Below are positions 15,185 through 49,939 of a stretch of DNA of 64,000 nucleotides, piece after piece (positions within the stretch are counted from its first letter, which is position 1; every line of letters begins with the position of its first letter). A program made the position numbers and the translations under genes. Source of the DNA: Halapricum salinum (GTDB lineage: Archaea > Halobacteriota > Halobacteria > Halobacteriales > Haloarculaceae); NCBI RefSeq assembly GCF_004799665.1, contig NZ_CP031310.1:302887-366886 (forward strand), read 5' to 3'. Below the pieces are notes generated by a model. That model saw only the letters and a program-made list of their open reading frames with translations. It was not told the origin of the DNA and ran no database searches.

Positions 15185-15186
15185 GG

Positions 15187-30820: not shown

Positions 30821-33355
30821 ATGGCAATCGATGACACAGACGGGGGGGAGAGTGAGGAGACTCGCTCTAGCAGTGACCGGCTCTTACAGAACGTCAACGA
30901 AGAGGCCGGTGCCGGGTACAGCTGGTCGGACTTCCGGCGTGAGCACCACGACGGTGGTCGGTTCGACCGCAGCAAGTATCTGGGTTTCGACCCACAGCGA
31001 ACCGACGACTACCTCGAAGACGGTGCCAGTGCCGGGAAGACCCTCGATCAATACTGGCAATCGTTTCTGGATCTGGAGACGACGCCGGTGGTAAAGGGCA
31101 GCTACCGGCTCGAACACTTCAAGCGAGAGTACTACTACGAAGAGGGCGACCGGGCACCGCGTGACGGCGACGGGAACAAGATCCCGTTCGAACTGGAAGA
31201 GTACCTCGGCTTCGGCGAGGACGAAGTCGAAGGGGAACTCAGTCTCGCCGAGGACCGCGCGAGCACGCTCAAACATCTCGTCGACGAGCGGACCGTCGAC
31301 GTCAACGAGGAATTAGACGAGGACGCCTTCTTCTCGACGGTCGAGGGGCACACGACCGTCGTCAATCGCTACGACCTGGAGAAGACCGTCCCCCTGGAGA
31401 AGAAAAAGCACTTCTACGAGGTCGAACGCTACTGGGTGAACAAGCCATACGCGTGTGTCATCATCTTCCACTCGCGCAAGGAGAACGAACGCAAGTACTA
31501 CGTCGTCGAGCCGTATCTCAACGAGATAGAGGTCAATCTACAGGACTTTCTGGCGCGCAAGCTTCGAACGGCGATCAAGTACTCCGACGACGACATCGTC
31601 GTCGACGGCTCCGAGGCCGATCGCGCTGACGTCATCCAGCGCGAGACCGAACAACTCCTCCAGCGCTACGACCTCTACAGCGAGCCAGTCAAAAACGGCA
31701 GCGGCACCGTCGGGACGATCAAGGGACTGCTCGGGATGGGCAGCGACGTCGAGGAGGTATCGGGTGAACTCGAAGGAATTCTGACTCGGCCCGAGCCGGC
31801 GGTTTTGGCCGAAGACTCCAAGACGCTCACCGAGTACCAGGTCGAGAAACTGCTGTACAAACTCAAGCGAAACTTCATCGGCTATCAGAAGATCGACCCG
31901 ATCAAACACGACATCAACGTGGAGGACGTCTCCTGTGACGGGTACAACTCCCGGGTGTTCGTCTATCACACCGAGTACGAGAACATCATCTCGAACGTCG
32001 AACACGGCAAGTCCACGCTGGACGACTTCGTTGTCAAACTCGCCCAGCGCTCGGGCAAAGGGATCTCCAAACGGCAACCGCAGGTGGACGCGACCTTACC
32101 GGACGGGTCGCGCGCCCAGCTTACCCTGGGTGACGAAGTCTCGGACCACGGGACCAACTACACGATCCGTCAGTTCAAGGACGTCCCGTTCACGCCGATC
32201 GACCTCATCAACTGGAACACGTTCAGCCTGGACCAGATGGCGTTCCTCTGGCTCTGTATCGAGAACCACAAGAGCCTGATCTTCGCCGGCGGGACGGCCT
32301 CGGGGAAGACCACCAGCCTGAACGCGGTCTCGCTGTTCATTCCCTCGAATTCGAAGATTGTCTCCATCGAGGACACCCGCGAGGTCGAACTACCCCAGCG
32401 AAACTGGGTCGCCAGCGTCACCCGTCCCTCCTTCGGTGAGGACGACAAGGGTGACGTCGACGAGTTCGATCTGCTGGAGGCCGCACTGCGACAACGCCCC
32501 GACTACATCGTGATGGGTGAGATTCGTGGTGAAGAGGGTCGAACCCTGTTCCAGGTCATGTCGACGGGTCACACCACGTACACGACGTTCCACGCCGACT
32601 CCGTGGGCGAGGTCATCAAGCGGTTCACGACCGACCCGATCAACGTCTCGAAGACGCTGTTCACGGCGCTGGACCTGGTGAGCATTCAGACACAGACCCG
32701 GACCGACGGCAAGAAGGTCCGCCGGAGCAAGTCACTGACCGAGATCAACGAGTACACGCCCGAGAACGACGAGATCAACGTCCGGGACGTCTACCAGTGG
32801 CAAGCCGACACCGACCAGTTCATCCAGATGGGCAATTCCAACACCCTCGAAGAGATCAAGTTCGACCGCGGGTGGGGTCAGGACCGCCTGGACGAGGAGT
32901 TGTTCAAACGCAAGGTCGTCCTCGCGTATCTCATCGAGAACGGACTCAACACCTACACCCAGGTCGCCGCGACGATCCAGGCGTTCATCAACGATCCCGA
33001 TACGATCATGACGCTGATCGCCAACGACCAGCTCGAACGCAGTCTCGAGGACCTCCGGGAGATGGAGTCCGTCGAAATCGAAGTCGACCAGGAGAAAGAG
33101 GAACTCGTCCCGCGGCCCGATCCGGGCGAGGACATGCGCGAGGAGGCCCAGGAGATCCTGGACAACGCCGACCCGCTGTTCAGGCAGTTGCGGGCGTCCG
33201 AGACGTCGGACATCGTCAGTGCCCTCACAGGTATCGAGTCCGAGGAAGACATCACACCCGTGCCCGCAGACGAAGAGGAAGACAGCCAGGAAGAGACCGT
33301 CGAGTTCGGTCAGTTCGTGCCGAAAGCCGGTGCGGAGGCGACTGACGACGGATGA
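30821..33355 (+). CDS. Type II/IV secretion ATPase (PilB/TadA type) for an archaeal pilus
   Basis: 844 residues. A long acidic N-terminal domain (about 1-330) precedes the ATPase core. Walker A is GGTASGKTTSLNAV near 489, aspartate/arginine box SIEDTREVELPQRNW near 515, Walker B DYIVMGEIRGEEGRTL near 560 and histidine box GHTTYTTFHADS near 580. The C-terminal part (about 700-844) is acidic with DADPLF-like helices. It powers polymerisation of pilin subunits by the partner at 33352-35523, which it overlaps by four bases. In Haloferax the corresponding pairs are named PilB and PilC; no number is given here because copies vary. Confidence 0.9.
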   Translation: MAIDDTDGGESEETRSSSDRLLQNVNEEAGAGYSWSDFRREHHDGGRFDRSKYLGFDPQRTDDYLEDGASAGKTLDQYWQSFLDLETTPVVKGSYRLEHFKREYYYEEGDRAPRDGDGNKIPFELEEYLGFGEDEVEGELSLAEDRASTLKHLVDERTVDVNEELDEDAFFSTVEGHTTVVNRYDLEKTVPLEKKKHFYEVERYWVNKPYACVIIFHSRKENERKYYVVEPYLNEIEVNLQDFLARKLRTAIKYSDDDIVVDGSEADRADVIQRETEQLLQRYDLYSEPVKNGSGTVGTIKGLLGMGSDVEEVSGELEGILTRPEPAVLAEDSKTLTEYQVEKLLYKLKRNFIGYQKIDPIKHDINVEDVSCDGYNSRVFVYHTEYENIISNVEHGKSTLDDFVVKLAQRSGKGISKRQPQVDATLPDGSRAQLTLGDEVSDHGTNYTIRQFKDVPFTPIDLINWNTFSLDQMAFLWLCIENHKSLIFAGGTASGKTTSLNAVSLFIPSNSKIVSIEDTREVELPQRNWVASVTRPSFGEDDKGDVDEFDLLEAALRQRPDYIVMGEIRGEEGRTLFQVMSTGHTTYTTFHADSVGEVIKRFTTDPINVSKTLFTALDLVSIQTQTRTDGKKVRRSKSLTEINEYTPENDEINVRDVYQWQADTDQFIQMGNSNTLEEIKFDRGWGQDRLDEELFKRKVVLAYLIENGLNTYTQVAATIQAFINDPDTIMTLIANDQLERSLEDLREMESVEIEVDQEKEELVPRPDPGEDMREEAQEILDNADPLFRQLRASETSDIVSALTGIESEEDITPVPADEEEDSQEETVEFGQFVPKAGAEATDDG

Positions 33356-35523
33356 GCCTCGACACACGGTCGCCGGAGGCCAGCCTCGGTGGCACTGGCA
33401 CGCTCGGGGACACGTTCTATCCACTCTTCCAGTGGCTGTTCGACGACGAGGGCGACTTCGTCAGTAGCGTCGAGACGAAACTCGCCGAAGCGCGGATGGC
33501 CGACAACGTCGAGATGTTCCTCTCGCGTGCGCTCGCGGTCGGGACCATCGCAGGCGTCGCGCTGTGGCTGGTCGGGACGCTGGTCGGGTACATGCTCGTC
33601 ACCGTGTTCCTCCCCGACGATTTCCTCATCCTCGGGATCGATTTCGGCCAGTACAACGCGCTGGTCAACGCCATCAAACTCCCGGTGATGATACTGGTCT
33701 CGGGGCTGTTCTTCGGCTCGATCGGCTTCGCGATCGGGTTCGGCTCGCTCGTGTCGATCCCGTACTTTCGATCGTCGGCACGCAAGCGCGAGATCAACGT
33801 CCTGCTGTCGGACTCGATCTCCTTTATGTACGCGCTGTCGGTCGGAGGTCTGAATCAGCTGGAGATCCTCCACGCGATGGGCAAAGCCGAGGACACCTAC
33901 GGCGAGGTCGCAAAGGAGTTCCAGTCGATCGTCCTCGAAACGGAATACTTCGACACGGACTACCGGACTGCGGTCCGCAACCAGGCGTTGCAGACCCCCA
34001 GCGACGAGCTGAGCCAGTTCCTGACGGACATGCTGTCGATCATCAACTCCGGCGGGGACATGACGAGTTTCCTCGAAGACCAGAAGAACAAGCACATGCG
34101 GACGGCCAAACAGGAACAGCAGAAACTGCTGGAGACCCTGGAGCTGTTCGGCGAGATGTACATGACGCTGTCGCTGTTCCCACTCCTGCTCATCATCATC
34201 CTCGTGATCATGAACATGATGGGCAACGCCAGTTCGACGCTGATGTACGGGACGGTCTACGGGCTGATCCCACTGGTCAGCGTCGGCTTCCTGGTGCTGG
34301 TCTCGACGGTCACGCAGGACACGATCGGTGACGGTTACCTCCAGCCCGATCGGGACGAAGACGACCGCGTCGAGAGCAGCGGCGGCATCTTCCAGCTTGG
34401 GCTGATCGAGAGTTTCACCGGCGAGTACAGCGTCTTCGATCGGATCAAGAACAAGGAGGGGTCCTATCAGGTGATGGAGATCGTCCGTGAGCCACACATC
34501 TTCTTCCGCGACAACCCGACGTACGTACTCGCGGTGACCGTCCCGCTCTCGTTGCTGGCGCTGGGGATCTCGCTGTTCGCAGGCTGGGCGCCGATGCCGT
34601 TGCCGTTCGATAGCTTCATCTGGGGAGAGAAAGGCTTCGCGAAAAACCCCGTCCAGGCGACGTTCTTCTGGGTGTACGTCCCGATGTACATCAACTTCAT
34701 TCCGCTGGCGATCTTCTACGAGTGGAACCAGCGCTACCGCAAGTCCGTCATCGGCAACCTCTCTGAGAACCTTCGGAAGTTGGCCAGCGCCAACGACACC
34801 GGGATGACGCTGCTGGAGTCGATCCAGGTCGTCGCCGACACTTCCTCGGGCCGACTCGCAGAGGAGCTGGAGACGATCCACGCCAAGACCAACTACGGGA
34901 CGAGTCTCAAACACAGCTTGCGGGAGTTCAACAACAAGTTCCACGTCCCGCGGATGGCCCGGACTGTGAAGCTCATCAGTGAGGCCCAGGAAGCCTCCAG
35001 TCAGATCCAGGACGTGCTCTCGACGGCCGCCCAGTCGAGCGAGAACCAGGACGACATCGATCGGGAGCGCAAGTCCCGCACGCGGATGCAGGTCGTGATC
35101 ATCATCATGACCTACCTGACGCTACTGGGGGTCATCGCATTGCTGAAATTGCAGTTCCTCGATACGATGCAGGGACTCGGAGAAGCGACCCAGGGCGCCT
35201 CCGGTGATGCACCGTCTGGAGCGAGCTTCAGCGGCGATCTGGGGCCGCTGTCGATGCTGTTCTTCCACGCGGTGACCCTGCAGGCGATCCTGTCGTCGTT
35301 CATCGCCGGATACATCCGGGACGTCAATCTCATCTCGGGCGTGAAGTTCGCAGTGATCCTCTCGACAATCGCGCTCGTGGTCTGGATCGCCGTCGGTGGC
35401 GGAAACACCGGCGGCGGCGGCAACGAAACCGAGGCAGCGCTGCTGTTGCTGCTGGTCGGCCCAACCGCCGGAACGCGAGCGCGGATCAGAGAACGTCTGG
35501 TCCAGTGGAGGAATCGGGTCTAG
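33352..35523 (+). CDS. Type II secretion F family membrane platform (PilC/TadC type)
   Basis: 723 residues with about nine membrane helices and two GspF/TadC cytoplasmic domains (about 140-270: ARKREINVLLSDSISFMYAL, NQLEILHAMGKAEDTYGEVA; and about 450-570: YRKSVIGNLSENLRKLASAN, TGMTLLESIQVVADTSSGRL). The TM segments include LFPLLLIIILVIMNMMGN, and FFHAVTLQAILSSFIAGYI near the end. It forms the inner-membrane base on which the ATPase acts. Its stop is two bases before the first pilin-like gene. Confidence 0.9.
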   Translation: MSLDTRSPEASLGGTGTLGDTFYPLFQWLFDDEGDFVSSVETKLAEARMADNVEMFLSRALAVGTIAGVALWLVGTLVGYMLVTVFLPDDFLILGIDFGQYNALVNAIKLPVMILVSGLFFGSIGFAIGFGSLVSIPYFRSSARKREINVLLSDSISFMYALSVGGLNQLEILHAMGKAEDTYGEVAKEFQSIVLETEYFDTDYRTAVRNQALQTPSDELSQFLTDMLSIINSGGDMTSFLEDQKNKHMRTAKQEQQKLLETLELFGEMYMTLSLFPLLLIIILVIMNMMGNASSTLMYGTVYGLIPLVSVGFLVLVSTVTQDTIGDGYLQPDRDEDDRVESSGGIFQLGLIESFTGEYSVFDRIKNKEGSYQVMEIVREPHIFFRDNPTYVLAVTVPLSLLALGISLFAGWAPMPLPFDSFIWGEKGFAKNPVQATFFWVYVPMYINFIPLAIFYEWNQRYRKSVIGNLSENLRKLASANDTGMTLLESIQVVADTSSGRLAEELETIHAKTNYGTSLKHSLREFNNKFHVPRMARTVKLISEAQEASSQIQDVLSTAAQSSENQDDIDRERKSRTRMQVVIIIMTYLTLLGVIALLKLQFLDTMQGLGEATQGASGDAPSGASFSGDLGPLSMLFFHAVTLQAILSSFIAGYIRDVNLISGVKFAVILSTIALVVWIAVGGGNTGGGGNETEAALLLLLVGPTAGTRARIRERLVQWRNRV

Positions 35524-35525
35524 CT

Positions 35526-35984
35526 ATGCGATGGGTGGGTGATACCCGGGGACAGACACTGCAGGATTTCGCCGTCGGGGTCGGGATCTTCCTGATCGCG
35601 TTCATCTTCGTGCTGTCGCTGTTCCCGGGGCTGTTGACGCCGTTTCAATCCTCGGCCAGCGGGGCAGAACGGGCCCAGGCCGAGCAGGTGTCGACGCAGA
35701 TGTTGAACACGCTCTCGGATGGGTCGGCACCGAACCACCTCAATACGGCAGAATTGACGACCGTGCTCGGCGGATCGGAGGCCGACTTGCTGGATCGCTA
35801 CGGCTTACCGATCGCGGCCAACATCAACGTCACCGTCGAGACGCTCGACGGGACCAGAAACATCTATACCACGAACAACGAGGTCGGCGACCGTGAAGTA
35901 GCGACGTCTGCTCGCATCGTGACGCTGGACGGCGACAACCCAGATTGTGAGCCGGCGTGCCGACTCGTGGTACGGGTGTGGTAA
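35526..35984 (+). CDS. Pilin-like protein A, cassette 1
   Basis: 152 residues. Class III leader with MRWVGDTRG then QTLQDFAVGVGIFLIAFIFV; the RG-Q junction fits prepilin-peptidase cleavage. The soluble part includes SASGAERAQAEQVSTQMLNT and ends ACRLVVRVW. Equivalent of A' at 44212-44766 (DDRG-QTTLDFTIGVTIFVVV, ending FLVVQLW). It is probably a minor pilin or assembly factor. The first of the downstream block after the platform gene, two bases away. DUF7287-like in size and pattern. Confidence 0.82.
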   Translation: MRWVGDTRGQTLQDFAVGVGIFLIAFIFVLSLFPGLLTPFQSSASGAERAQAEQVSTQMLNTLSDGSAPNHLNTAELTTVLGGSEADLLDRYGLPIAANINVTVETLDGTRNIYTTNNEVGDREVATSARIVTLDGDNPDCEPACRLVVRVW

Positions 35985-35985
35985 C

Positions 35986-36636
35986 ATGCGCGGCCAATTA
36001 CACTCCGAAGACCGTGGGCAAGCGTTCACGCTGGAGGGGATCATCAGCGCAGTCATCGTGCTGACGGCGCTTTTGTACGCCCTCCAGGCGGTCGTCATCA
36101 CGCCGACGACTGGGGGCACTGTCGATCAGGGCGTCCGGACGGAACTCCAGCAGCAGGCCGACGACATCCTCGCCATCGCGGGCGGGGACGACGACGGGCA
36201 GTTGTCGGAGCTGACCCGCAACTGGTCACAGAGCCGACGGACGTTCTACGGCGCTGTCAACCCGAACATCGGATTCGGCAATCAGCGCCTTCCCGGGGAG
36301 TTGGGAACGCTCCTGAACGAGACGTTCGACTCTCGGGATCGCCAGTACAACGTCGAGATGCGCTACCTCCCGAAAGATCCCACCGATGGGATTCAACGGA
36401 CGGTCATCGCCTCACGCGGAACGCCGTCGGATAGCTCTGTGATGGCCTCCTACCGGATCACGCTGTACGACAACATGACGCTGACCTCGCCGACAGCTGG
36501 ATCGGCCGAGTTGTGGCAGTACGACACGTCTCCGACGACGAACCCGATCGACGGGAAGAGCGGCTACTATCCCGTCCCGAACGCCGTCTCGGGACCGGTG
36601 TATAACGTCGTCGAAATCAGGGTGATCGTCTGGTGA
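35986..36636 (+). CDS. Pilin-like protein B, cassette 1
   Basis: 216 residues. MRGQLHSEDRG-QAFTLEGIISAVIVLTALLYALQ is the leader plus assembly helix, with a Gly-Gln junction. The soluble part contains QQQADDILAIAGGDDDGQLS, RRTFYGAVNPN, and ends VEIRVIVW. B' at 44760-45341 has the same layout (NRG-QAHTLEAVVAALLLLSSLV, ending RVEVVVWRI). DUF7288-like. The start is one base after the A stop. Secreted to the outer membrane face after cleavage. Confidence 0.82.
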   Translation: MRGQLHSEDRGQAFTLEGIISAVIVLTALLYALQAVVITPTTGGTVDQGVRTELQQQADDILAIAGGDDDGQLSELTRNWSQSRRTFYGAVNPNIGFGNQRLPGELGTLLNETFDSRDRQYNVEMRYLPKDPTDGIQRTVIASRGTPSDSSVMASYRITLYDNMTLTSPTAGSAELWQYDTSPTTNPIDGKSGYYPVPNAVSGPVYNVVEIRVIVW

Positions 36637-37664
36637 TCGAACGACTCGAACCCGATGACGGAGCGGCGCTATCCGACCGGCGGGGACAGTTGTTGCTCGT
36701 CGGGGCCGTCGCACTGGCGATCATCATCCTCGGGCTGTCCATCGTCGTCAACACCGTCCTGTTCACCGAGAACGTCGGGACCGGTGAGGCCCGGGTCGAA
36801 GCACCCGCGATCGAGGAGTTCTCCTTCGAGGCCCAAAAGAGCGCTCGCTCGCTGATGCTTCGGGTGAACGGTGCCGATCGAACGGATGCGATTGCGGACG
36901 TGAACGCGAGTATCGGCGCGCAACTCGCCAATTATAGCGACGCTGTTGCGCGATCGTATGCCGCCAGCGGGACTGTCTTCGTCGACGTCTCGTACAACGA
37001 CACGCTCAGAAACGGGACGCGGATCGTCCAGGGGAGTGACCGAAAGTTCACCTACCCGGCCGCACACGACAGCGGCCTGAGTTCGAACCGCAGTGACTGG
37101 TCGCCTGTGGCAGATCCAACGGAGGTCGGCTGGATGGTCTTCAACGTCGACCTGCGGAACACGAGTGGCCAGCAGACGACCGTCGAACTGACCAACGACA
37201 CCGGCGCGACGCTCACGTATCGGTTCAACCGATCGAACGGTGGAAACGGAGCAGACCTTCGGATCGAAGCCACGAACTCGGCCACGGGTGGGACCGAATC
37301 GGCCTCCTGTGAGTCGACGGGTGGTCGCGTCCTCCTCGACATGCGCCGCGGGGAGGCGTTCCTGAGCGAGTGTACCTTCCCCGAGATCGGATGGATCGAA
37401 CCGCCATATTCAGTCACGATTACCAAGGGTCACCGTCTGGCCGGTCAGTACGACATCATCGTCAACGAGAGCTGGCACACCGCGGAATCCAGCACGATCG
37501 ACGCCGAAGACGGCGGGACTGACCGTCCGTATCCACACTGTCCCGACGGCGTCGAAGAGCCCTGTCTCTCACCGGTCGTCTGGCAGGGGCAGGTCGATCT
37601 GACCTACCGATCTGCAGACGTGAATTTCGCCACCGTGCGGAACATCACCGTCTACGACCCCTGA
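36633..37664 (+). CDS. Pilin-like protein C, cassette 1
   Basis: 343 residues, GTG start overlapping the B stop by four bases. Leader SDRRG-QLLLVGAVALAIIILGLSIVV, with VNTVLFTENVGTGEARVEA after the helix. C' at 45329-46294 matches that region (ERA-QIMLVAAFVLAVTFIA, LNSVIYTENLATRGEDA). A long extracellular part with cysteines at ASCESTGG, SECTFPE, YPHCPDG and EPCLSP, probably disulfide-bonded. DUF7261-like. A gap of 248 bases with a promoter follows. Confidence 0.82.
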   Translation: MIERLEPDDGAALSDRRGQLLLVGAVALAIIILGLSIVVNTVLFTENVGTGEARVEAPAIEEFSFEAQKSARSLMLRVNGADRTDAIADVNASIGAQLANYSDAVARSYAASGTVFVDVSYNDTLRNGTRIVQGSDRKFTYPAAHDSGLSSNRSDWSPVADPTEVGWMVFNVDLRNTSGQQTTVELTNDTGATLTYRFNRSNGGNGADLRIEATNSATGGTESASCESTGGRVLLDMRRGEAFLSECTFPEIGWIEPPYSVTITKGHRLAGQYDIIVNESWHTAESSTIDAEDGGTDRPYPHCPDGVEEPCLSPVVWQGQVDLTYRSADVNFATVRNITVYDP

Positions 37665-37770
37665 AACAGCCTAACGAGGGGATCTCGAGGAGCGATCGAT
37701 GACCGTGGAGACAGGGCGACGCCGGCCAACTCGAGCGAATCGCTGTTTTCACGCTCGCTAGTCACTCCAC

Positions 37771-37803
37771 TATCTCTATATGGGAGGATCGTTTACGTTA
37801 ACG
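37771..37803 (+). promoter_or_regulatory. Internal promoter before the D gene
   Basis: TATCTCTATATGG (37771-37783) is a TATA-like element, and the palindrome CGTTAACG at 37796-37803 lies close to the expected transcription start. It would give a leader of about 105 bases before the ATG at 37913, so D, E and F could be expressed independently of A-C. Confidence 0.4.
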
Positions 37804-37912
37804 AACAACCGGGGAGTACCGGCGGTCGAACGGGTCCGACGGACGCCCCGATCCGGATGACGGTGGAAAGTATGGGTTCCCCCGTCATCGACGGCAACAG
37901 AGGGAAATCAGG

Positions 37913-40561: not shown

Positions 40562-41359
40562 GTGTCCGAACGGAGACGAGGCCGAGCGGTTAGCGACGTC
40601 GTCGCGTTCACGCTGATGTTCGGGATCATCCTGACGTCCGTCGGGCTGGTCGCGACGTTCGGGCTGGCCGAATTGAACTCGTTCAACGAGCACCAGAAAA
40701 TCGAGAACGCGGATCGAACGTTCGAGTTGATCGCGCGGTCGTTCGACGAACTCGAGGAGAGTCAGGCGACCGTCCGAACCGAGGCGATCGAACTCGGTGG
40801 CAGTTCGATCACCGTCGAAGAGTCGTCGTCGCTGACGGTGACGGTCAGAGACACAGACACGGGAACGACACACACCGAGTCGTTCCCACTCAACACCCTG
40901 CAGTACGAAGTCGATAACCGACTGATCGGCTACGAGAATGGCGCGACCTACCGCGTCCGGACGAACGCCGACGGCGGCATCATCAACCGCGATCCGGGAC
41001 TCGTCTGTTCCGACGGGCAAGCCGTCCTCTCGCTGGTGACAATCAGGGCCGAAGAAGATCGGTATATCAGCGGTAGCGGGACGCTGCGAATCACCGGCCG
41101 TCTGAACGACAGTTCGTTGTTGTATCCGGTGTCGGACACCGACGTCGGCAATGCATCGGCGGCCGATCAGGTCGATCTGCAGTTCACGTTCAGTGGCGAG
41201 AGTCGCGCTCGCGAATGGGCCAATCACTTCGACCGTGCGCCGGGCGACTGGTCTGTCACGAGTCAGACCGACACGTCGGTGACGGTCCGGTGTGGCGCCA
41301 GCGAGGATCTGGACCACGTCTACGTCCGCCGATCGATCATCGAAGTCAGCTACTCATGA
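40562..41359 (+). CDS. Pilin-like protein E, cassette 1
   Basis: 265 residues, GTG start directly after the D stop. Leader GRA-VSDVVAFTLMFGIILTSVGL followed by LAELNSFNEHQKIENADRTF. E' at 46759-47532 has the same form (DRG-LSEVLGFALVFALVVSTVI, RDAEELNNAERAFDVLADNM). DUF7289-like. The soluble part is beta-rich with cysteines in GLVCSDG and TVRCGASED, and ends VRRSIIEVSYS. Minor pilin or assembly factor. Confidence 0.82.
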   Translation: MSERRRGRAVSDVVAFTLMFGIILTSVGLVATFGLAELNSFNEHQKIENADRTFELIARSFDELEESQATVRTEAIELGGSSITVEESSSLTVTVRDTDTGTTHTESFPLNTLQYEVDNRLIGYENGATYRVRTNADGGIINRDPGLVCSDGQAVLSLVTIRAEEDRYISGSGTLRITGRLNDSSLLYPVSDTDVGNASAADQVDLQFTFSGESRAREWANHFDRAPGDWSVTSQTDTSVTVRCGASEDLDHVYVRRSIIEVSYS

Positions 41360-41435
41360 CCCGGAACCCAACCGTCATCGGCAGTCGTCAGCCAGCTTCG
41401 AGAGAGCGGACGCACACCTGTTTAGGAGTAGATCT

Positions 41436-43751
41436 ATGAGAGCAACGCGTGGAGACAACGAAATGACAGAACGGGGGCAGTGGCGCATCGACGAACGAGG
41501 GGCCTCAGAGGTGATCGGGGCGGTGTTGATCATCGGGATGGTCATCACGGGGTCGTTGATCGTCGTCTATTTCGGTGCGGACACGATCGAGCGGACCGAA
41601 CAGGGCCAGAGCGACGAGTCGGCCCAGATCGGTATCCAGGAGATCGACTCCCGGCTGAGCACGCTCGCGTCGTCGAGTGCAGCGAAGACGGTCAACTTCG
41701 AGATCGGCTCGAACATCGAACGGAACGCGTACCTGACCGAGGACGAAGGGTATCTGAGCATCACAGTAGACGAGCGAAGCGCGTGTTCGGTTCGAGAGCC
41801 ACTCGATTCGATCCGGTTCGAACGTGACGACGGAGAGATCATCGCCTACGAGGCCGGTGGGACGTGGGTCAAATCCCGGAACAACGGGACCGTTCTCAGG
41901 ACGGCCCCGGACGTCTCCTATCGCAACGGGACGATCGACGTCTCGCTGTTGAACATGACCGGACAGGTCCAAGGCGGGGTCAACCAGGCCGTCGCGGACG
42001 TGAACACCTCGCGCATCGATACGAAAAACGCCGTAGACACGCTCATGCAGGGTGAGTGTGTCCGGCCGGACAACGTGACGATGCGGATCCAGAGCGACTT
42101 CTACCGGGCGTGGACGGACTACCTCGAAGAGGAAACCGGCCTGCAGAATGGGACGCCCGCCGACCCGGGCGACAGTTATCTCACCGTCGACGAGTCAGAA
42201 CAGATGGTCGAAGTCTATCTCAATCAGAGTGCGCTCCCCCGACGGACCGACGACGCGCGGAACAACGTCGTCAACGTCACGGGCTCGGACTACATGAAGG
42301 ACGTCTCGATCACTGACGACGGCATTATGATCACCAAAGGTGTCGACAACACCTATACGGTCTACAGCGAGCCGCTCTCCGAGCGGCCCGAACTCGGAAC
42401 TGTCAGACAGATTTCAGAGGCAGTAAACGTGACCCGGCCGCCGCTCGACGTTGTGTTCGTCGTCGACGAGTCGGGGTCGATGGCACAGTCCGCTGGTAGT
42501 CGATTCAAGTACGAAGCCGTTCGCGAGTCCATGCAGAACTTCACGACGTATCTCGATAGCGACATGGACCGCGTGGCTCTTGCAGGGTACAACCAATACC
42601 ACGAGGAAGGGTCGGGAGGGACATACGAGCTCCACGGAGAAGAACGTGAAATCAACGAAGGGACCAACAGAGGTGTGATCTACAGAACGAACGGCCGGAT
42701 GTTGACGAGTGACTTCGCGGAATTCAACAGTTCGACGGTCTACGAGACCGAAGCGATCGGTGGGACGTACTCTGCCGGAGGGATGACGAAAGCGGCGACG
42801 ATGCTCGATCTCCGGAGTAACGAGAGTCGGAACACGATTGTCGTGATGCTGACTGACGGCAAAAATACCGGCGACGACTACTGGTACATCGGCGACGACG
42901 AGTATGATGGAAGTGACGGCGCGTCGATCGAAATCGCTGACCGCATGAATCGGACAGGGACGGTCACGTACACGATCGGCTTTTCTGACAACGAAGACGA
43001 CGTCGACGACGGCTTCCTCAAGAACACCGCTACCGAAGGCGGCGGCGAGTACTACTTCGCGGAGGACTCCGAAGAACTCCAAGAAGTATTCTCCGCCATC
43101 GCTGAGGACGTCTCCAGCACCAACCAGGTCGGCCACTACGGCCTGACGACGAACCTCTCGCACAACGGGACGGTGAATCCTCCCCAGATCACCGGTGACA
43201 CGAGCCGAATCGCGACCGTGACCGAGGACGGCGAGGAGTGGATGAATATCAACGATCCGACGTCCCCGTCGACGTTCAGTCACGCGTTCGCAGTCACCGG
43301 TGGCGACATGGTGAACTTCACGGCGAATAGATTCGATTGTGACAGATGGGTCGGGACCGGACAGTCGAAAGTCATCAACGGCTCCTCAGTTCCGGTCACC
43401 CGCTGTGCGGAGATGAATACGACCGATCCGACGGTCGTCGAGGGCGACAACGTCACCGTCTTCACCAAAGGCGACTCCGCGACGTTCAACGACTTCCTCG
43501 ACAACACGACCGCCGCGGAGTGGCAAACGAACCTCACCGAGGCGCTGGACAACTACGGCGGCCTCTACAACGAAACCTCCGAGAAGCTAACCCTCCAGAG
43601 CAATCAGGTGCTGGTCCTCTATGACTTCCCCGACGGCAAGAACACCGACAACCGGATGTTGATGCTCTACAGCATCGGCCTCTCCGAAGAAGAGGCCCGA
43701 CCGACTGGAATCATCGACTTCGACGTCGACAACGTCGAAATATCGAGCTGA
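41436..43751 (+). CDS. Pilin-like protein F with von Willebrand A domain
   Basis: 771 residues from the ATG at 41436, where TTAGGAG lies in good position; the ATG at 41463 is also possible. Leader and helix DERG-ASEVIGAVLIIGMVITGSLI, then a DUF7289-like region (RSACSVREPLDSIRFERDDG...). From about 335 to 540 a vWA domain: VVFVVDESGSMAQSAGSRFK gives the MIDAS DxSxS, with TYSAGGMTKAATML and VVMLTDGKNTGD the other MIDAS loops. The C-terminal part has NHGT-type beta repeats. vWA pilins usually bind ligands or surfaces, so this is an adhesion candidate. It closes cassette 1. Confidence 0.83.
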   Translation: MRATRGDNEMTERGQWRIDERGASEVIGAVLIIGMVITGSLIVVYFGADTIERTEQGQSDESAQIGIQEIDSRLSTLASSSAAKTVNFEIGSNIERNAYLTEDEGYLSITVDERSACSVREPLDSIRFERDDGEIIAYEAGGTWVKSRNNGTVLRTAPDVSYRNGTIDVSLLNMTGQVQGGVNQAVADVNTSRIDTKNAVDTLMQGECVRPDNVTMRIQSDFYRAWTDYLEEETGLQNGTPADPGDSYLTVDESEQMVEVYLNQSALPRRTDDARNNVVNVTGSDYMKDVSITDDGIMITKGVDNTYTVYSEPLSERPELGTVRQISEAVNVTRPPLDVVFVVDESGSMAQSAGSRFKYEAVRESMQNFTTYLDSDMDRVALAGYNQYHEEGSGGTYELHGEEREINEGTNRGVIYRTNGRMLTSDFAEFNSSTVYETEAIGGTYSAGGMTKAATMLDLRSNESRNTIVVMLTDGKNTGDDYWYIGDDEYDGSDGASIEIADRMNRTGTVTYTIGFSDNEDDVDDGFLKNTATEGGGEYYFAEDSEELQEVFSAIAEDVSSTNQVGHYGLTTNLSHNGTVNPPQITGDTSRIATVTEDGEEWMNINDPTSPSTFSHAFAVTGGDMVNFTANRFDCDRWVGTGQSKVINGSSVPVTRCAEMNTTDPTVVEGDNVTVFTKGDSATFNDFLDNTTAAEWQTNLTEALDNYGGLYNETSEKLTLQSNQVLVLYDFPDGKNTDNRMLMLYSIGLSEEEARPTGIIDFDVDNVEISS

Positions 43752-43853
43752 GTGCCGTTCGGCAGTTCGTGCCCTCGTCCGAACGTGCGCTGACTGCGAT
43801 CGAATCAGCGTACCGCTGTCGCTGACTCCCTGGGTACGGCAGAGGAATCGGAA

Positions 43854-43925
43854 TGGACTCGCCGGGATTTGAACCCGGGGCCTCTCCCATGCCAAGGGAG
43901 TGATCTACCACTGATCTACGAGCCC
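43854..43925 (-). tRNA. tRNA-Ala (anticodon GGC)
   Basis: 72 bases on the minus strand, 43925 down to 43854. Acceptor GGGCTCG pairs with CGAGTCC, with A as discriminator. Anticodon arm CTCCC-TTGGCAT-GGGAG places GGC at positions 34-36, and the T arm is CCGGG-TTCAAAT-CCCGG. No CCA is encoded. No intron. It lies between pilin cassettes 1 and 2. Confidence 0.96.
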
Positions 43926-43955
43926 GCGACGCACCCAGAGATACCCGAGGGGTTT

Positions 43956-43962
43956 TCTTAAA
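43956..43962 (-). promoter_or_regulatory. TATA box of tRNA-Ala
   Basis: On the minus strand GGGTTTAAGAAAACCC; the TTTAAG core is 31-37 bases before the tRNA 5' end, a normal archaeal spacing. The flanks GGGTTT/AAACCC form a dyad. Confidence 0.6.
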
Positions 43963-44211
43963 CCCATCGAACCAGACCGCCGTCCGTCGGGGGGTAGTTT
44001 CTTCAGGATTGATAATTCGGCCACAATAGCTAAGCCAGTTCGCCGCGGACGGTTTTGGCAAGCGAATCGAGCGATCCAACCGAGACACCTGGGGAAATCG
44101 TGTACGTATCTGATCCGTCGGGACGGCCGCTGGCGACCAGAGCCAGCAAACGCGAGCTGACCACTCGAGCGACAGTGCCACAGCGCGCACTCGCATGGAG
44201 GGGAGGCGGGG
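43963..44211. other. Spacer between tRNA-Ala and cassette 2
   Basis: About 250 bases. The purine-rich GGAGGGGAGGCGGGG just before 44212 is a plausible ribosome-binding region for A'. No attachment-site repeat of the tRNA 3' end was seen in the window. A minus-strand frame (to 44242) overlaps the A' start and was not accepted as a gene. Confidence 0.4.
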
Positions 44212-44766
44212 ATGCGTAGAGACGACCGTGGACAAACGACACTCGATTTCACGATCGGCGTGACGATCTTCGTGGTCGTCCTCGCCGGTGTGTTTCTGTT
44301 CGTCCCGGGAACGCTCCAGCCCTTCGAAGAAGGTGGCCAGGAGAACATCGTCACCGCCAATCGAGTTGCCGATCAGCTGAGCGAGCACGTGCTCGCAGAG
44401 CCGACAGAGCCCTACGTGCTGGAGAACGGCTGTGTCGTCCCCTTCTTCGACGAATCGGAACCAGTCCCCGCAGAGTGTAACTACGAGGGCGGAACCCTTC
44501 AGGAGCGGGTTGGATACGGCGATTTCCAGTTTGCGAACGTCTCGATCCGGGGATCGGTTGCCGGGAGTTCCGAGGTCGAACAGTTGTGTTACGAAAGTGC
44601 GAATCCCGCCGGGTCGCGGCTCGAATCCGGGAGCGACTGTGGTGAGTCAGACGACACCCGGTTGGCCGTGGGTTCGGACCTCGAGGGTGTCGAGTCGTCG
44701 GTGACCGCCCGCCGAGTAGTCGAACTCGACGACCAGACGGTCTTTCTGGTGGTGCAACTATGGTGA
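44212..44766 (+). CDS. Pilin-like protein A', cassette 2
   Basis: 184 residues. Leader MRRDDRG-QTTLDFTIGVTIFVVVLAGV, then FLFVPGTLQPFEEGGQENIV, which parallels LSLFPGLLTPFQSSASGAER in A. Cysteines in LENGCVVPFF, AECNYEG, EQLCYES and GSDCGES. Ends VFLVVQLW. First gene of cassette 2; overlaps B' by seven bases. Likely a minor pilin handled by the same motor, as no second ATPase is present. Confidence 0.82.
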   Translation: MRRDDRGQTTLDFTIGVTIFVVVLAGVFLFVPGTLQPFEEGGQENIVTANRVADQLSEHVLAEPTEPYVLENGCVVPFFDESEPVPAECNYEGGTLQERVGYGDFQFANVSIRGSVAGSSEVEQLCYESANPAGSRLESGSDCGESDDTRLAVGSDLEGVESSVTARRVVELDDQTVFLVVQLW

Positions 44767-45341
44767 ACCGAGGACAGGCCCACACGCTCGAGGCCGTCGT
44801 CGCAGCCCTGTTGTTGCTGTCGAGCCTCGTCTTCGCACTCCAGATCACGGCCGTGACACCGTTGTCTGCCAGTACGTCGAACCAGCACATCGAGAATCAG
44901 CAGCAGGCCAGCGCTGCGGGGATCCTGTCGATCGCCAGTCAGAACGGAGACCTGAAACGGTCGGTGTTGTACTGGAACGCGACCGGCCAGCGGTTCCACA
45001 ACGGGACGATCAACGGCTACTACACGGAGACGATGCCGACCGAGTTCGGCCGGTCGCTGGAGGAGGCGTTCGGGGATCGCGGGATCGCCTACAACGTCTA
45101 CGTCACCTACACCGAGCCGGACGGCGGCGTGGTCCGTGACGAGATGATATATCGGGGCGAGCCCAGCGACAACGCCGTGATGGCGAGTCGAACGCTCGTA
45201 TTGACCAACGAGAGCCGGCTCCGGACCGAAGAGCTGGGACTCGGGCCGCAGATCGACTCGGATAACTTCTACGCGCCAGACATCGAGGACGGCGGGTACC
45301 ACAACACGATCCGCGTGGAGGTGGTCGTGTGGCGGATCTGA
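44760..45341 (+). CDS. Pilin-like protein B', cassette 2
   Basis: 193 residues. Leader MVNRG-QAHTLEAVVAALLLLSSLV and ALQITAVTPLSASTSNQ after it, matching B (ALQAVVITPTTGGTVDQ). Ends RVEVVVWRI. It also shares SDNAVMASRTLVLTNESRL with SDSSVMASYRITLYDNMTL of B. No cysteines. Overlaps C' by 13 bases. Confidence 0.82.
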   Translation: MVNRGQAHTLEAVVAALLLLSSLVFALQITAVTPLSASTSNQHIENQQQASAAGILSIASQNGDLKRSVLYWNATGQRFHNGTINGYYTETMPTEFGRSLEEAFGDRGIAYNVYVTYTEPDGGVVRDEMIYRGEPSDNAVMASRTLVLTNESRLRTEELGLGPQIDSDNFYAPDIEDGGYHNTIRVEVVVWRI

Positions 45342-46294
45342 ACGGCCGTCGGACCAGCCGCGGCGGCGAGCGAGCCCAGATCATGCTCGTCGCGGCGTTC
45401 GTGCTGGCGGTGACGTTCATCGCGCTCGCCGTGATGTTGAACTCGGTGATCTACACCGAGAATCTGGCGACACGTGGCGAGGACGCCCACGGCTCGGAAG
45501 CGATCGCCTACCGAGCAGACATGGCCGCCGGAACCGAACGGCTCATCGAACACGTCAACGAGAACCAGACCGGAGAGTCCTACGACGACCACGTCGCGAA
45601 TCTCACCACGTCGATCGCCGCGATGGACAATGGCACAGCACCGATCGTCGCGACCGGCGGCACCCGGACCAAGGTTTCGGTGATGAGCGTAACGCGTGGA
45701 ACGCGTATCGGACAGTTCAACACCGCACGGAACTTCACGGACGTCGGTGCAACCACCGACTGGGAACTGGCGAACTCCATCGAGGGGACGCGCGCGTTCA
45801 GAATCAACATCACAGATTCGAGTCAACTGGTCGAGGAGGACCTCATCTCGTTCCTGGGTGGGGGTATCGATCCATTCACCGTCCGTGTCGACGACGGCAC
45901 CGACGACTGGGCAGTCCGGATCTACGAAGACGACACGACGGACAACGTCATCGTCGACGTCGAGGGGGCCGGAGAGTGTGAAGTCGGTGAGAACCCGGAG
46001 ATCGACCTCACTGCCGGGACCATCAACGGCGAGCCCTGTGGGCCGCTATCGTTCGGAGACGGTGTCTCGACGCCGTACTCGCTGCGCTACGAGCAGGCCG
46101 ATCAGATCCAGGGCAACTTCTCGCTGGTCGTCGATTCGACCAGTTTCACCAGTAGCCACTACAGTGCTGACGAGGACACGCCCTTTGCGGACGATCAGGC
46201 CATCTACGCGGCGACGATCCGCGTCCTGCACGAGTCGGCAGATCACGTCTACGCGACCGACGCAGAGGCGATCCCGGGTGAGAACGATGCGTAA
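45329..46294 (+). CDS. Pilin-like protein C', cassette 2
   Basis: 321 residues, GTG start. Leader RGGERA-QIMLVAAFVLAVTFIALAV then MLNSVIYTENLATRGEDAHG, the C-type signature VNTVLFTENV/LNSVIYTENL. The soluble part has two cysteines (GAGECEVGE, GEPCGPLSF). N-glycosylation sequons such as NTT, NGT and NFT occur. Ends IRVLHESADHVYATDAEAIP, similar to the end of C. Overlaps D' by eight bases. Confidence 0.82.
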   Translation: MADLNGRRTSRGGERAQIMLVAAFVLAVTFIALAVMLNSVIYTENLATRGEDAHGSEAIAYRADMAAGTERLIEHVNENQTGESYDDHVANLTTSIAAMDNGTAPIVATGGTRTKVSVMSVTRGTRIGQFNTARNFTDVGATTDWELANSIEGTRAFRINITDSSQLVEEDLISFLGGGIDPFTVRVDDGTDDWAVRIYEDDTTDNVIVDVEGAGECEVGENPEIDLTAGTINGEPCGPLSFGDGVSTPYSLRYEQADQIQGNFSLVVDSTSFTSSHYSADEDTPFADDQAIYAATIRVLHESADHVYATDAEAIPGENDA

Positions 46295-46757
46295 GAAAGG
46301 ACAGTTCGACGGCGACGACCGCGGCGTCTCGATGACGGTCAGCTACATCCTCGGGCTGTCGATCGCCTTCCTGCTGGTGATCGGGCTGTTCCTCACGGCC
46401 GGCGATTTCGTCACCGAGCAGCGCGAGACGAGCATCCGCACGGAGATGGAAGTCCTGGGCGAACAGATCGCCACCGACATCACGCTGGCCGACCGAATGG
46501 CACAAACGACGACCGACAACGAAACCGTCGTCGTCAGGCGGTCACTCCCCTCCAGGGTCAGCGGGACGGGATATACGATCAGCGTGACTGGCGGCGACGA
46601 TCCCTATCTCGTGTTGACCTCACAGGACCCGGAGATAACGGTCGAGGCCGAGTTCTCCAACCAGACCGACGTCGAGATGAGCCGACTCAACGGCGGGTCG
46701 ATACTGGTGAACTACACCGACAGCGACACGCTGGAAGTCCAGCGGAGTGATCGATAG
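46287..46757 (+). CDS. Pilin-like protein D', cassette 2 (short form)
   Basis: 156 residues. Leader DDRG-VSMTVSYILGLSIAFLLVIG then FVTEQRETSIRTEMEVLGEQIATDI, the D signature. Lacks the PKD and LamG domains of D at 37913-40561 and ends GGSILVNYTDSDTLEVQRSD, so it is the likely ancestral size of the family (DUF7266-like). One base separates it from E'. Confidence 0.82.
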   Translation: MRKKGQFDGDDRGVSMTVSYILGLSIAFLLVIGLFLTAGDFVTEQRETSIRTEMEVLGEQIATDITLADRMAQTTTDNETVVVRRSLPSRVSGTGYTISVTGGDDPYLVLTSQDPEITVEAEFSNQTDVEMSRLNGGSILVNYTDSDTLEVQRSDR

Positions 46758-46758
46758 G

Positions 46759-47532
46759 ATGGACCAGCGACCCGGGAGCGGACGCCTGGATGACCGAGGC
46801 TTGAGCGAAGTCCTCGGGTTCGCGCTGGTGTTCGCGCTGGTCGTCTCGACGGTGATTCTGGTCGCGTTGATCGGGTTCGGATCGCTCGAAGAGACGCGCG
46901 ACGCCGAGGAACTCAACAACGCCGAGCGCGCGTTCGACGTGCTCGCGGACAACATGGCCGACATCTACGAGGAAGGTGCGCCGAGTCGAGCGACCGAGAT
47001 TAGCCTCCAGAGCGCCCAGCTACAGGTCGGCGATCCGATCATGATGAACGTCTCGGCTATCAACGCGTCGGGCGGGACAGAGGTCAACCAGTTCCCGATC
47101 GACCCCATCGTCTTCGAGAGCGGTGATTCGAAGGTCCTCTACGCCGGTGGGGCGACGTTTCGCACACAGGGAGACAACGGCGTGATGGTGGCGGGCCCGC
47201 CGCTGGTCAACGCCTCCGAGAATCTCCTGCTCCCGATCGTCCAGACGCGCCACCGCGGAGACGTCACGAGTACGAGCGGCCAGACGGTCCGCGTGCGGGC
47301 CGTGAATCGTCAGCGCCGGTCCGTGCCCGGATTCAACGAGGATCCGACCAGCCACCAGAAGATCATCCTCAATATAACGTCGCCGCGAGCCGGCCTGTGG
47401 AAGTCCTATCTCACGGAGCAACAGCAACTGTCGTGTGTCACACCTCGCGAGGACAACGTCCGCTGTACGGTCGACGATCCCGAGTCGGTGTTCCTGACGC
47501 GGACGTTGATCATCTACGAGTTCGAGACCTGA
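46759..47532 (+). CDS. Pilin-like protein E', cassette 2
   Basis: 257 residues from the ATG at 46759; a GTG at 46747 would overlap D'. Leader DDRG-LSEVLGFALVFALVVSTVILV followed by ETRDAEELNNAERAFDVLAD, matching E. DUF7289-like, with the middle GDSKVLYAGGATFRTQGDNG parallel to RLIGYENGATYRVRTNADGG of E. Ends RTLIIYEFET. Last plus-strand gene of cassette 2. Confidence 0.82.
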   Translation: MDQRPGSGRLDDRGLSEVLGFALVFALVVSTVILVALIGFGSLEETRDAEELNNAERAFDVLADNMADIYEEGAPSRATEISLQSAQLQVGDPIMMNVSAINASGGTEVNQFPIDPIVFESGDSKVLYAGGATFRTQGDNGVMVAGPPLVNASENLLLPIVQTRHRGDVTSTSGQTVRVRAVNRQRRSVPGFNEDPTSHQKIILNITSPRAGLWKSYLTEQQQLSCVTPREDNVRCTVDDPESVFLTRTLIIYEFET

Positions 47533-47562
47533 TCCAGTCGGAAGCGTGACCCACAGCCACTT

Positions 47563-49134
47563 TCAGGCGTCCAGGCTGACCTCGATTTCGTTTTTGGTGA
47601 TGTGCAGGAACGTCACGAACCGACCGGCCGTCGACTCCTGATAGAGCAGCGTCCCCTGCGAGGGATCTTGCTGGATCGGCGTGCTCCCGCCCGGCCCGGT
47701 CTTGGCGTGTAGTCTGATGTTCGGTCCAGCCTCGCTCAGGTAGTGGTCGACGATGTCCCCGAGCATACAGCCCGTACTGGTATCACCCTGCGTGTAAGTC
47801 CCGGGCTCGCAACTGCTGATCGAACCGTGGCCGTCGAGCGTGACCTCGTTTTTCATCGACCAGTCGTTGATGTTCGAGCCGAAACACCACTGGTTGCCGT
47901 CACAGACACTGCCGCCACTACCGCCGCCCGTGCTGACGCCGCTGTCACTGTAGGCCATCTCGGTGGCGCTGTCGGTACTGGTGAGGTCGAGAGTGAGCTG
48001 CGGCTCGCCGTCGTTACAGCCCCACGTGACCGCGCTGGAACTGGCCGGAATCGTCGTCTCCCAGAGCTCGTACTCCTCGTGGCTGCTGCCGTTGTAGTAA
48101 TACTGGGCGACGTAGACGTCGGTTGTGTCGCCGCAGTCGAAATTCCCGGAGATATCCGGCGAGATGTGTAATTCCCACTGGGCTCCGGACTCGTTTTCGT
48201 GCCAGTAGGAGAACTCGTTCGTCCCGCCACCGTTGCCGTAGACGAGCGAAGTGTCGAACTGATCAAGCGGGTGATCCTCGCCGATTCCCGAGGCTTCGAC
48301 GTAGTCTTCGGTCCCGAACGTCGGCAGTTCGAACTCGCCGGGCGGCCCCGAGATGGTCGAGAGCGTCAGCGTCACTTTCTCACCGTCTCTGGTGACCTCA
48401 CCCGTCGTCCGCTGTCTGAAGTACGATTCCCACCCGTCGGCGTACTCGCTCTTGACAGTGACGTTGACGGTCCCGGTGCGAATGGGGTTGGTGTAGTTGC
48501 GGTAGTCAGTCGAGGCTGTCTCGTCGTACGGTGCACCGACGCCGTCGTCCTCGTCGGTCGTCCGATTCGGATAGACGAGCCGTGCCTGCTGGAGCGGGCG
48601 CACGTTCATATCGACGCTCCCGCTCGCCGAACCCTCCCCGTTGACCCGGATCGCCGGCAGCGTCAACGTCGCTCCGCGGTAGTGAAACTCGGGTGGGGAG
48701 ACCATCCGCGCGTCGCCGTTGCCCTCGACCTGCCAGACGCCACCGCCCTGATAGGCGATGATCCCCGAGTCACTCTCGTAGACGACCTTTCCGAGCGACT
48801 CGTTGAATATCACTTCGCTGTGTGGTGGATTCTCCGCCGTGTAGTTGTGATGTGTCACGCGCAGCCAGCCGTCGCCCTCGTGGACGGAGACTGCCCCACC
48901 GCCTTGCCCGAGCGAGACGGTCTGTCCGCCCGAGTCGCCGAGGGCGACCATCGCTGCACGAGAGTCGAACAGCGTCATCGAGTTCTCCGCGCGCTGGTAC
49001 TCGATACTCGACTGAGTGTCGAGGATCCCGCTCCCGCCGATAGCGACGGTCAATCCCGCACCCGCGATGACGAGTGCGAAGATGAGGACGAACCCGATCG
49101 TCTCCGACTGGGCCCGCGAGAACGTGTCGGTCAT
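47563..49134 (-). CDS. Pilin-like protein of DUF7289 type, opposite strand
   Basis: 523 residues. Leader TFSRA-QSETIGFVLIFALVIAGAG then DTQSSIEYQRAENSMTLFDS, as in the E/F group. The first 230 residues match the E/F domain (VVYESDSGIIAYQGGGVWQV), and the rest is a cysteine-bearing beta domain (FDCGDTTDVYV, WGCNDGEPQL, SVCDGNQWCFG, SSCEPGTYTQGD). It is convergent with E' (stops 31 bases apart) and stands in the place where an F' gene would be expected. It has its own promoter region at 49135-49350. Confidence 0.8.
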   Translation of the reverse strand: MTDTFSRAQSETIGFVLIFALVIAGAGLTVAIGGSGILDTQSSIEYQRAENSMTLFDSRAAMVALGDSGGQTVSLGQGGGAVSVHEGDGWLRVTHHNYTAENPPHSEVIFNESLGKVVYESDSGIIAYQGGGVWQVEGNGDARMVSPPEFHYRGATLTLPAIRVNGEGSASGSVDMNVRPLQQARLVYPNRTTDEDDGVGAPYDETASTDYRNYTNPIRTGTVNVTVKSEYADGWESYFRQRTTGEVTRDGEKVTLTLSTISGPPGEFELPTFGTEDYVEASGIGEDHPLDQFDTSLVYGNGGGTNEFSYWHENESGAQWELHISPDISGNFDCGDTTDVYVAQYYYNGSSHEEYELWETTIPASSSAVTWGCNDGEPQLTLDLTSTDSATEMAYSDSGVSTGGGSGGSVCDGNQWCFGSNINDWSMKNEVTLDGHGSISSCEPGTYTQGDTSTGCMLGDIVDHYLSEAGPNIRLHAKTGPGGSTPIQQDPSQGTLLYQESTAGRFVTFLHITKNEIEVSLDA

Positions 49135-49350: not shown

Positions 49351-49430
49351 TAGTGCCCCGTTGTAAGTTTGTTCCGGCTCGACCGCACGCCTTCGTGCGG
49401 TCTACCGGGAAATCGTTACAACGGACACTA
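49351..49430. repeat. 80-bp nested palindrome, possible MITE or leader structure
   Basis: Outer arms TAGTGCCCCGTTGTAA (49351-49366) and TTACAACGGACACTA (49416-49430) are complementary apart from one mismatch/bulge. Inside are TTCCGG/CCGGGAA and a perfect GACCGCAC-GCCTTC-GTGCGGTC stem (49381-49402). The ends are flanked by TGA on both sides, which could be a short target duplication. It lies 45 bases before the rps15 start. Either a miniature inverted-repeat element or a structured leader. Confidence 0.7.
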
Positions 49431-49474
49431 TGACGCCACACGCACCAGCGGTCAGTGTCGTTCCAATCAGAACT

Positions 49475-49939
49475 ATGGCACGAATGCACACACGCCGCCG
49501 CGGCTCGTCCAGTTCGGACAAGCCCGTGGCAGACGAACCGCCGGAGTGGAGTGACGTAGACGAAGACGCGATCGAACAGCGCGTCGTCGAGCTGGCCGAA
49601 GACGGCCACAGCCCCAGCCAGATCGGGCTGAAGCTGCGCGACGAGGGCGTTCAGGGCACGCCGATCCCTGACGTCAAGCTCGCGACGGGCAAGAAAGTCA
49701 CCGAGATTCTCGAAGAGAACGACGCCGAGGGCGACCTGCCCGAGGACCTCTACAACCTCTTCGAGCGCGCCGTTCGCCTGCGCGAGCACATGAACGAGAA
49801 CCCTGGTGACCACCAGAACAAGCGCGCCCTGCAGAACACCCAGTCGAAGATCCGCCGCCTGGTCGATTACTACCGCGGCGACGAACTCGACGAGGACTTC
49901 AAATACACCTACGACGTCGCCAAAGAGTACCTCGAGTAG
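49475..49939 (+). CDS. rps15: 30S ribosomal protein S15
   Basis: 154 residues from the ATG at 49475 (MARMHTRRRGSSSSDKPVAD); the frame extends upstream but archaeal/eukaryal S15 starts here. Contains the family's EPPEWSDVDEDAIEQRVVEL, ARDGHSPSQIGLKLRDEGVQ-like and HMNENPGDHQNKRALQNTQS-KIRRL segments that bind 16S rRNA. First gene of an operon with the RecJ-like, pcc1 and rps3ae genes; the next start follows its stop directly. An 80-bp palindrome lies in its leader. Confidence 0.96.
   Translation: MARMHTRRRGSSSSDKPVADEPPEWSDVDEDAIEQRVVELAEDGHSPSQIGLKLRDEGVQGTPIPDVKLATGKKVTEILEENDAEGDLPEDLYNLFERAVRLREHMNENPGDHQNKRALQNTQSKIRRLVDYYRGDELDEDFKYTYDVAKEYLE

Follow-up and report, generated by a model that had tools for sequence, protein, structure and literature searches.

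We examined a stretch of 64,000 nucleotides, hereafter the window, at positions 302887-366886 of the 3.45 Mb chromosome of Halapricum salinum (family Haloarculaceae), where the genes for a type IV pilus assembly ATPase and its PilC platform protein are followed by two sets, or kits, of pilin-like genes. We consider it probable that one PilB4-like motor serves two self-contained kits, kit 1 being exchangeable and kit 2 older and stable. Each kit comprises five small pilins (A-E) and a single large modular pilin, F, whose binding module is predicted to face outward. The gene families, the pairing of the kits, the single motor, the sharp borders of exchange, the kit-specific modules of F and, in the close pairs tested, the purifying selection are read directly from the sequence comparisons described here. 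From the same comparisons we infer that this motor would assemble both kits, that the kits would serve adhesion and that they would be expressed independently.

The genes are in the order ATPase, PilC, A-F, tRNA-Ala(GGC) on the minus strand, A'-E', F' on the minus strand and rpsO. The ATPase and PilC genes together span 30821-35523 and overlap by 4 bp. The features are as follows, in window coordinates.

30821-33355, plus strand: PilB4-like assembly ATPase, the motor (844 aa; T2SSE PF00437, 1.9e-32)
33352-35523, plus strand: PilC/TadC-like platform protein, left border of the exchange slot (723 aa; PF00482, 1.7e-25)
35524-43853: exchange slot from the PilC stop codon to tRNA-Ala, holding kit 1 (A-F), as delimited by pairwise DNA comparisons
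35526-35984, plus strand: A, kit 1 pilin (DUF7287, 9e-37; class III signal peptide)
35986-36636, plus strand: B, kit 1 pilin (DUF7288, 9e-56)
36633-37664, plus strand: C, kit 1 pilin (DUF7261, 2e-9)
37913-40561, plus strand: D, kit 1 modular pilin (DUF7266 stem, 3e-15, with PKD, Ig-like, and LamG, ConA-like lectin)
40562-41359, plus strand: E, kit 1 pilin (DUF7289, 5e-37)
41463-43751, plus strand: F, kit 1 modular pilin (DUF7289 stem with VWA; minus strand in relatives)
43854-43925, minus strand: tRNA-Ala(GGC), its 3' end facing the slot; integration site in a relative
44212-44766, plus strand: A', kit 2 pilin (DUF7287, 2e-41; model pLDDT 88)
44760-45341, plus strand: B', kit 2 pilin (DUF7288, 1e-64)
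45329-46294, plus strand: C', kit 2 pilin (DUF7261, 5e-8)
46287-46757, plus strand: D', kit 2 pilin without extra modules (DUF7266, 1e-27)
46747-47532, plus strand: E', kit 2 pilin (DUF7289, 2e-62; model pLDDT 88)
47563-49134, minus strand: F', kit 2 modular pilin (DUF7289 stem with DUF7308; position and strand kept in the kits of other families)
49430-49939, plus strand: rpsO (S15), right anchor of kit 2 (PF00312/PF08069; synteny)

Three genes likely start slightly later than first called: A at the ATG at 35526, B at 35986 and F at about 41463, which gives F 763 aa and matches its relatives at 717-794 aa.

Pairing of the two kits

A sequence-only reading of this DNA had described two parallel pilin-like cassettes behind one ATPase/platform pair, a description with which the gene positions and Pfam pairs agree. 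The pairs that it proposed, A/A' to E/E', fall one by one into DUF7287, DUF7288, DUF7261, DUF7266 and DUF7289, and F', its suggested partner of F, has the DUF7289 stem in common with F. Since the end modules differ (VWA in F, DUF7308 in F'), F' is the counterpart of F by its stem only. Generic leader peptides, which the same reading had named as a possible source of the similarities, do not account for them. When profiles of the five families were compared between kit types with the first 45 residues cut, the matches were strictly diagonal, with probabilities of 95.8-99.9% and E values of 7e-9 to 6e-32 on the diagonal and at most 1.7% in every other cell, and a leader-peptide artefact was thereby ruled out. 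The arrangement as a whole is real, clearly exceeds chance and goes beyond a duplication.

In all 12 kit proteins a hydrophobic stretch follows a class III signal peptide; the pattern loosely matches 494 of 4886 background open reading frames of at least 150 aa, a background that includes many true pilins. The models predicted for A' and E' combine a long N-terminal helix, of 60 residues in E', with a beta domain, as expected of pilins. In F, the DxSGS motif of a putative VWA metal ion-dependent adhesion site (MIDAS) is visible as DESGS. A literature search by the DUF names gave nothing.

Identical gene order in the two kits would also be expected if one kit had simply been duplicated within this lineage and were now partly redundant, and the sequence-only reading had taken the second block for a duplicated kit. 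The kits are instead anciently diverged, with 25.9% amino-acid identity, and belong to distant clades common to many genera. Trees do not place A-E and A'-E' as sisters, so that plain duplication is refuted; together with the orthologues of each kit in other genera they rule out a recent event. Kit 1 orthologues occur even without the motor (G161b, G197b and G086c; G and L numbers are our labels for genomes and loci). In two close pairs of genomes the dN/dS ratio was well below 1 for the genes of both kits tested (0.08-0.41) and was 0.07-0.09 for the motor, which indicates purifying selection on both kits in these pairs. We thus give plain duplication almost no weight.

Kit number and kit types in haloarchaea

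Gene B (DUF7288) was present in 185 of 194 sampled haloarchaeal genomes. Outside Haloarculaceae there is nearly always one copy, two being found in 4 of 154 genomes. Gene maps show that the A-E order which the sequence-only reading proposed to look for recurs in other haloarchaea, the usual single-kit layout being ATPase-PilC-A-B-C-D-E, often joined by an F-type gene in opposite orientation; tRNA-Ala lies between that layout and rpsO in G122, G088 and G070. Within Haloarculaceae, two or three B genes were counted in 37 of 67 genomes, and a single PilC of this type in 33 of the 37 multi-kit genomes (both counts taken from tables). On one contig of Halapricum sp. CBA1109 the motor is followed in tandem by a type i kit, tRNA-Ala, a VWA kit and a tRNA-type kit.

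A tree of 91 kits was built from concatenated A-E, and about 70 loci were compared. The kits between tRNA-Ala and rpsO, among them A'-E' of the window, formed one clade beside the single kit of G070, which belongs to another family. Motor-adjacent kits were scattered over distant clades, namely type i, the VWA type and a third, loose type. Type i kits occur in Haloarcula, Halomicrobium, Salinibaculum, Halovenus and others; their F measures at least about 1180 aa and bears CARDB, VWA or both. The VWA type includes A-F of the window and is also found in Halorhabdus and others; D is enlarged in it too, as with the PKD and LamG of the window's D. The end modules of F thus differ by kit, being VWA, CARDB repeats, VWA with CARDB, or DUF7308. 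For 313 of the 321 A-E genes tested in the three main types, the nearest neighbour pointed to the same kit type, and this agreement indicates that kits move as units. By these comparisons kit 1 belongs to an exchangeable lineage whose members occur in other genera, some with the motor and some without it.

F lies on the plus strand in the window, whereas most relatives with a VWA-type kit have it on the minus strand. The whole gene is inverted, 41490-43739 aligning in reverse to G204. No good inverted repeats flank F, and an invertible phase switch of this gene was rejected on that ground.

Exchange of kits between PilC and tRNA-Ala

The nearest named relatives of the platform protein are in Halapricum (78-80% identity), followed by Haloarcula, Halomicrobium, Halorhabdus and Salinibaculum. 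The motor tree follows genera and the kit types are scattered over it. DNA of the slot was compared in four pairs (G041/G059, G079/G089, G177b/G204 and G000/G177b). G041 and G059, of the genus of Halomicrobium katesii (G114), are 96.3% identical over 8.2 kb from upstream through the ATPase and PilC genes, the identity breaks off 4 bp before the PilC stop codon, and identity of 94-96% returns about 130 bp before tRNA-Ala and continues through rpsO. Between these borders the slot kits show no DNA match and 22.8% protein identity, PilC being 99.1% identical; A, B, C and E were called in both slots, and D was also found by profile. In genus g1, the slot of G177 holds a type i kit and those of G204, G212, G069 and the window hold the VWA type. 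G204 and G177 are 91.7% identical in PilC, 71.0% in kit 2 and 29.9% in the slot kit. The alignment of the window with G177 stops 61 bp before the PilC stop, and that of G079 with G089 likewise breaks at the PilC stop. Approximately unbiased tests rejected a single clade of slot kits both for genus g1 (p = 3e-5) and for G041, G059 and G114 (p = 1e-66).

Slot lengths ranged from 135 bp to 20 kb, with near-empty slots of 135-884 bp in L114, L116 and G208. As judged from these alignments, the slot is an exchange site: it can be occupied by one of three or more anciently diverged kits or by foreign DNA, or be empty. Several loci depart from the usual layout in other ways. In L100 (12-19.6 kb) the place of a kit is taken by 7.6 kb of low-GC DNA (0.517) with unassigned genes and a metallo-beta-lactamase-fold protein. 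In two genomes of the Halorhabdus-like genus g6 (L088 of G050 and L089 of G079) the motor-adjacent kit is inverted with E facing PilC, and part of an additional kit lies near the inverted kit of G050. In Salinibaculum litoreum (L080/L081, G196) an inversion relative to the motor takes in both the tRNA-type kit and tRNA-Ala. The tRNA-type kit of L090 (G041; 14873-15817) lacks B'-E' between A' and the end of F', and the slot there is filled by another kit. A lone type i F gene of about 1260-1290 aa stands beside tRNA-Ala, upstream of it, in L018/L019 (G055) and L020/L021 (G106); in G055 its kit and motor are about 170 kb distant, and we regard it as a trace of a former tandem arrangement.

Extra copies of the last 22 bases of tRNA-Ala were found near the slot in about 10 loci, as compared with none in 1.46 Mb of shuffled sequence. 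In G204 a lower-GC block that encodes a tyrosine recombinase (PF00589) is bounded by a perfect copy of these 22 bases at a distance of 10.7 kb, and this integrated element demonstrates that the site is a real integration target. Besides the tyrosine integrase, the block (L125/L126, about 18.2-28.9 kb when oriented and joined) carries a putative DNA methyltransferase and a possible primase-like gene. In the slot loci compared no kit lay inside an integrated element of this kind, and the left border was the PilC stop codon, not an att copy. We therefore rejected the idea of integrase-borne kits and prefer recombination between the flanks.

Kit 2, by contrast with the slot kit, tends to follow the motor: over 153 pairs, PilC identity correlated with that of kit 2 at r = 0.86 and with that of the slot kit at r = 0.63. 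The trees and synteny indicate that kit 2 belongs to a stable lineage, linked to tRNA-Ala and usually to rpsO and largely vertically inherited in Haloarculaceae.

The motor and its genome context

The sequence-only reading had stated that only one motor serves both blocks. As a count of motors this holds at the locus; the genome as a whole encodes five T2SSE ATPases. The nearest other PilC of the genome is only 33% identical to that of the locus, B-family genes number two in the whole genome, and all DUF7289 genes above the curated cut-off are within this locus. By these family searches the genome has no further kit and no second motor of this type. A long ATPase with its own pilin set fits the PilB4-like pattern, and a DUF7288 gene was found in the Haloferax volcanii control. 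Judged by gene content, this archaeal type IV pilus has the PilB4-like arrangement.

Another motor, for example a PilB3-like one, might assemble kit 2, in which case the closeness of kit 2 to this motor would be historical. Four further ATPases are available in the genome, kit 2 lies far from the motor in several genomes, and in Haloferax PilB3-C3 rescues a pilB1-C1 mutant (PMC6491452). However, L114 and L107, where the tRNA-type kit is the only kit alongside this motor, have kit 2 right beside it. The same motor-kit operon is kept in single-kit families, and kit and motor were lost together in genus g12, where B and this PilC are jointly absent in 6 of 6 genomes. We consider assembly of kit 2 by another motor unlikely. 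The motor directly adjoins a kit of the kit-2 type in G161, G201, G207, G208, L114 and L116, with slot kits elsewhere, and a slot kit is the only one alongside it in L095, G079, G089 and G225. Seven of the nine B-less genomes examined were without an intact close PilC. The g12 genomes, of a Haloarculaceae genus without motor and kits, are G182, G199, G205, G213, G219 and G226. In L128 (G140) a frameshift splits PilC into frames of 240 and 501 residues, by sequencing error or motor decay.

Several observations weigh against one motor serving a stable and an exchangeable kit. The four other T2SSE ATPases could in principle assemble kit 2, and four multi-kit genomes encode a second PilC that is 43-58% identical. 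G044 and G073 retain a PilC of 60-62% identity and no DUF7288 gene was detected in them. Kit 2 is diverged in L094 and has been lost in some genomes, so that "stable" is to be taken as relative, and kit types are not strictly exclusive, as L094 holds three at once. The models of A' and E' had no PDB match at E < 0.001, nor a solved pilin relative.

Discussion

We propose that whole kits of at least three ancient types replace one another in the slot (35.5-43.8 kb), probably through homologous recombination between the conserved flanks, aided by a tRNA-Ala that also draws in integrating elements. Kit 2 (44.2-49.1 kb), between tRNA-Ala and rpsO, would be the older and largely vertical one. If the motor assembles the products of either kit, a cell would hold two surface specificities, and lineages could change one of them in a single step. 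More tentatively, the whole PilC-to-rpsO interval of Haloarculaceae may act as a loading bay for pilin kits, in which tRNA-Ala is an integration point, recombination between flanks adds, swaps or drops kits, and two or three specificities in tandem are deployed by one motor.

PilB4-type loci of Euryarchaeota consist of an ATPase and a TadC-like platform followed by their own pilin set (Makarova et al. 2016, PMC4858521), as at this locus. They include a minor pilin, arCOG02911, that is of variable length and prone to duplication (PMC4858521) and resembles E/F. In many cases the motor of such loci is duplicated and the pilins are not (PMC4858521), whereas at the present locus a single motor is followed by pilin kits that have multiplied and been exchanged.

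The Kil (Tad) pilus of Myxococcus has one motor and four interchangeable tip complexes whose function was shown experimentally (PMC12075869). The locus described here resembles it in that several paralogous sets of minor pilins, each including a large modular one, accompany a single motor. Kil is bacterial, with its tips at separate loci and three pilins per tip; the present system is archaeal and tandem, with five small pilins and one large one and a predicted function. Streptococcus sanguinis has the modular pilins PilB, with VWA, and PilC, with Ig and a ConA-like lectin (PMC8179133, PMC9934059). The same pair of modules occurs within one pilin set here, as stem with VWA in F and stem with PKD and LamG in D. 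The pilin stems are of other families, binding by the F and D modules is a prediction, and the likeness is probably convergent.

These parallels bear on whether both kits might be minor-pilin complexes that prime, and form alternative tips on, one common filament, with the major pilin gene located outside the kits, as in Kil. Each kit has several small pilins and a large modular pilin, as in the KilLMN tips (PMC12075869), the VWA of F and the Ig and ConA-like lectin of D parallel the S. sanguinis tip pilins, and several kits are found with one motor. On the other hand, Makarova et al. predict a major pilin inside PilB4-type sets (PMC4858521), and no separate major pilin was identified in this analysis. 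We regard alternative tips as a possible but less than even reading. Because published analysis suggests a major pilin of their own for PilB4-type sets (PMC4858521), a separate filament for each kit is an equally possible alternative, and sequence alone gives the same picture for both. The single-kit genomes are consistent with any one kit sufficing for pilus formation.

In Halorubrum ezzemoulense, different strains carry one or the other of two divergent pilin islands, the homeocassettes Islands 25 and 26, immediately after tadC (PMC11078007). Together with the interchangeable Kil tips, these islands are the nearest precedent for the locus: divergent islands at one position behind the platform gene, with neighboring core genes nearly identical. 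G041 and G059 likewise carry divergent islands between near-identical flanks (94-96%), and, as judged by the one-to-one A-E profiles, half or more of their genes have homologues on the other island. The Halorubrum islands differ in occurring once per genome, in belonging to another family and in having an alanyl-tRNA ligase gene as right flank; here a stable kit accompanies the slot, as many as three kits lie in tandem, and the right border is formed by tRNA-Ala. No haloarchaeal genome with a stable and an exchangeable kit, and up to three in tandem, behind one motor was found in the open-licence papers searched; paired kits may already be noted in the supplementary tables of Makarova et al.

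The locus offers a natural experiment on the modularity of type IV pili, in which motors 99% identical in protein stand before kits of about 23% identity, and this makes the pilin-reading surfaces of PilB and PilC and the specificity-setting pilins directly testable. With VWA and lectin modules that resemble those found in modular pilins of bacteria, it may be the archaeal equivalent of interchangeable pilus tips, and it provides a concrete locus for the question of what PilB4-type pili do. By the distribution of kits among the genomes compared, a shared motor with an exchangeable kit is characteristic of Haloarculaceae, and wholesale swaps in the slot suggest a way to change the adhesion target of the cell with the machine unchanged. 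Pili are among the known receptors of viruses, and such swaps may also be relevant to escape from viruses.

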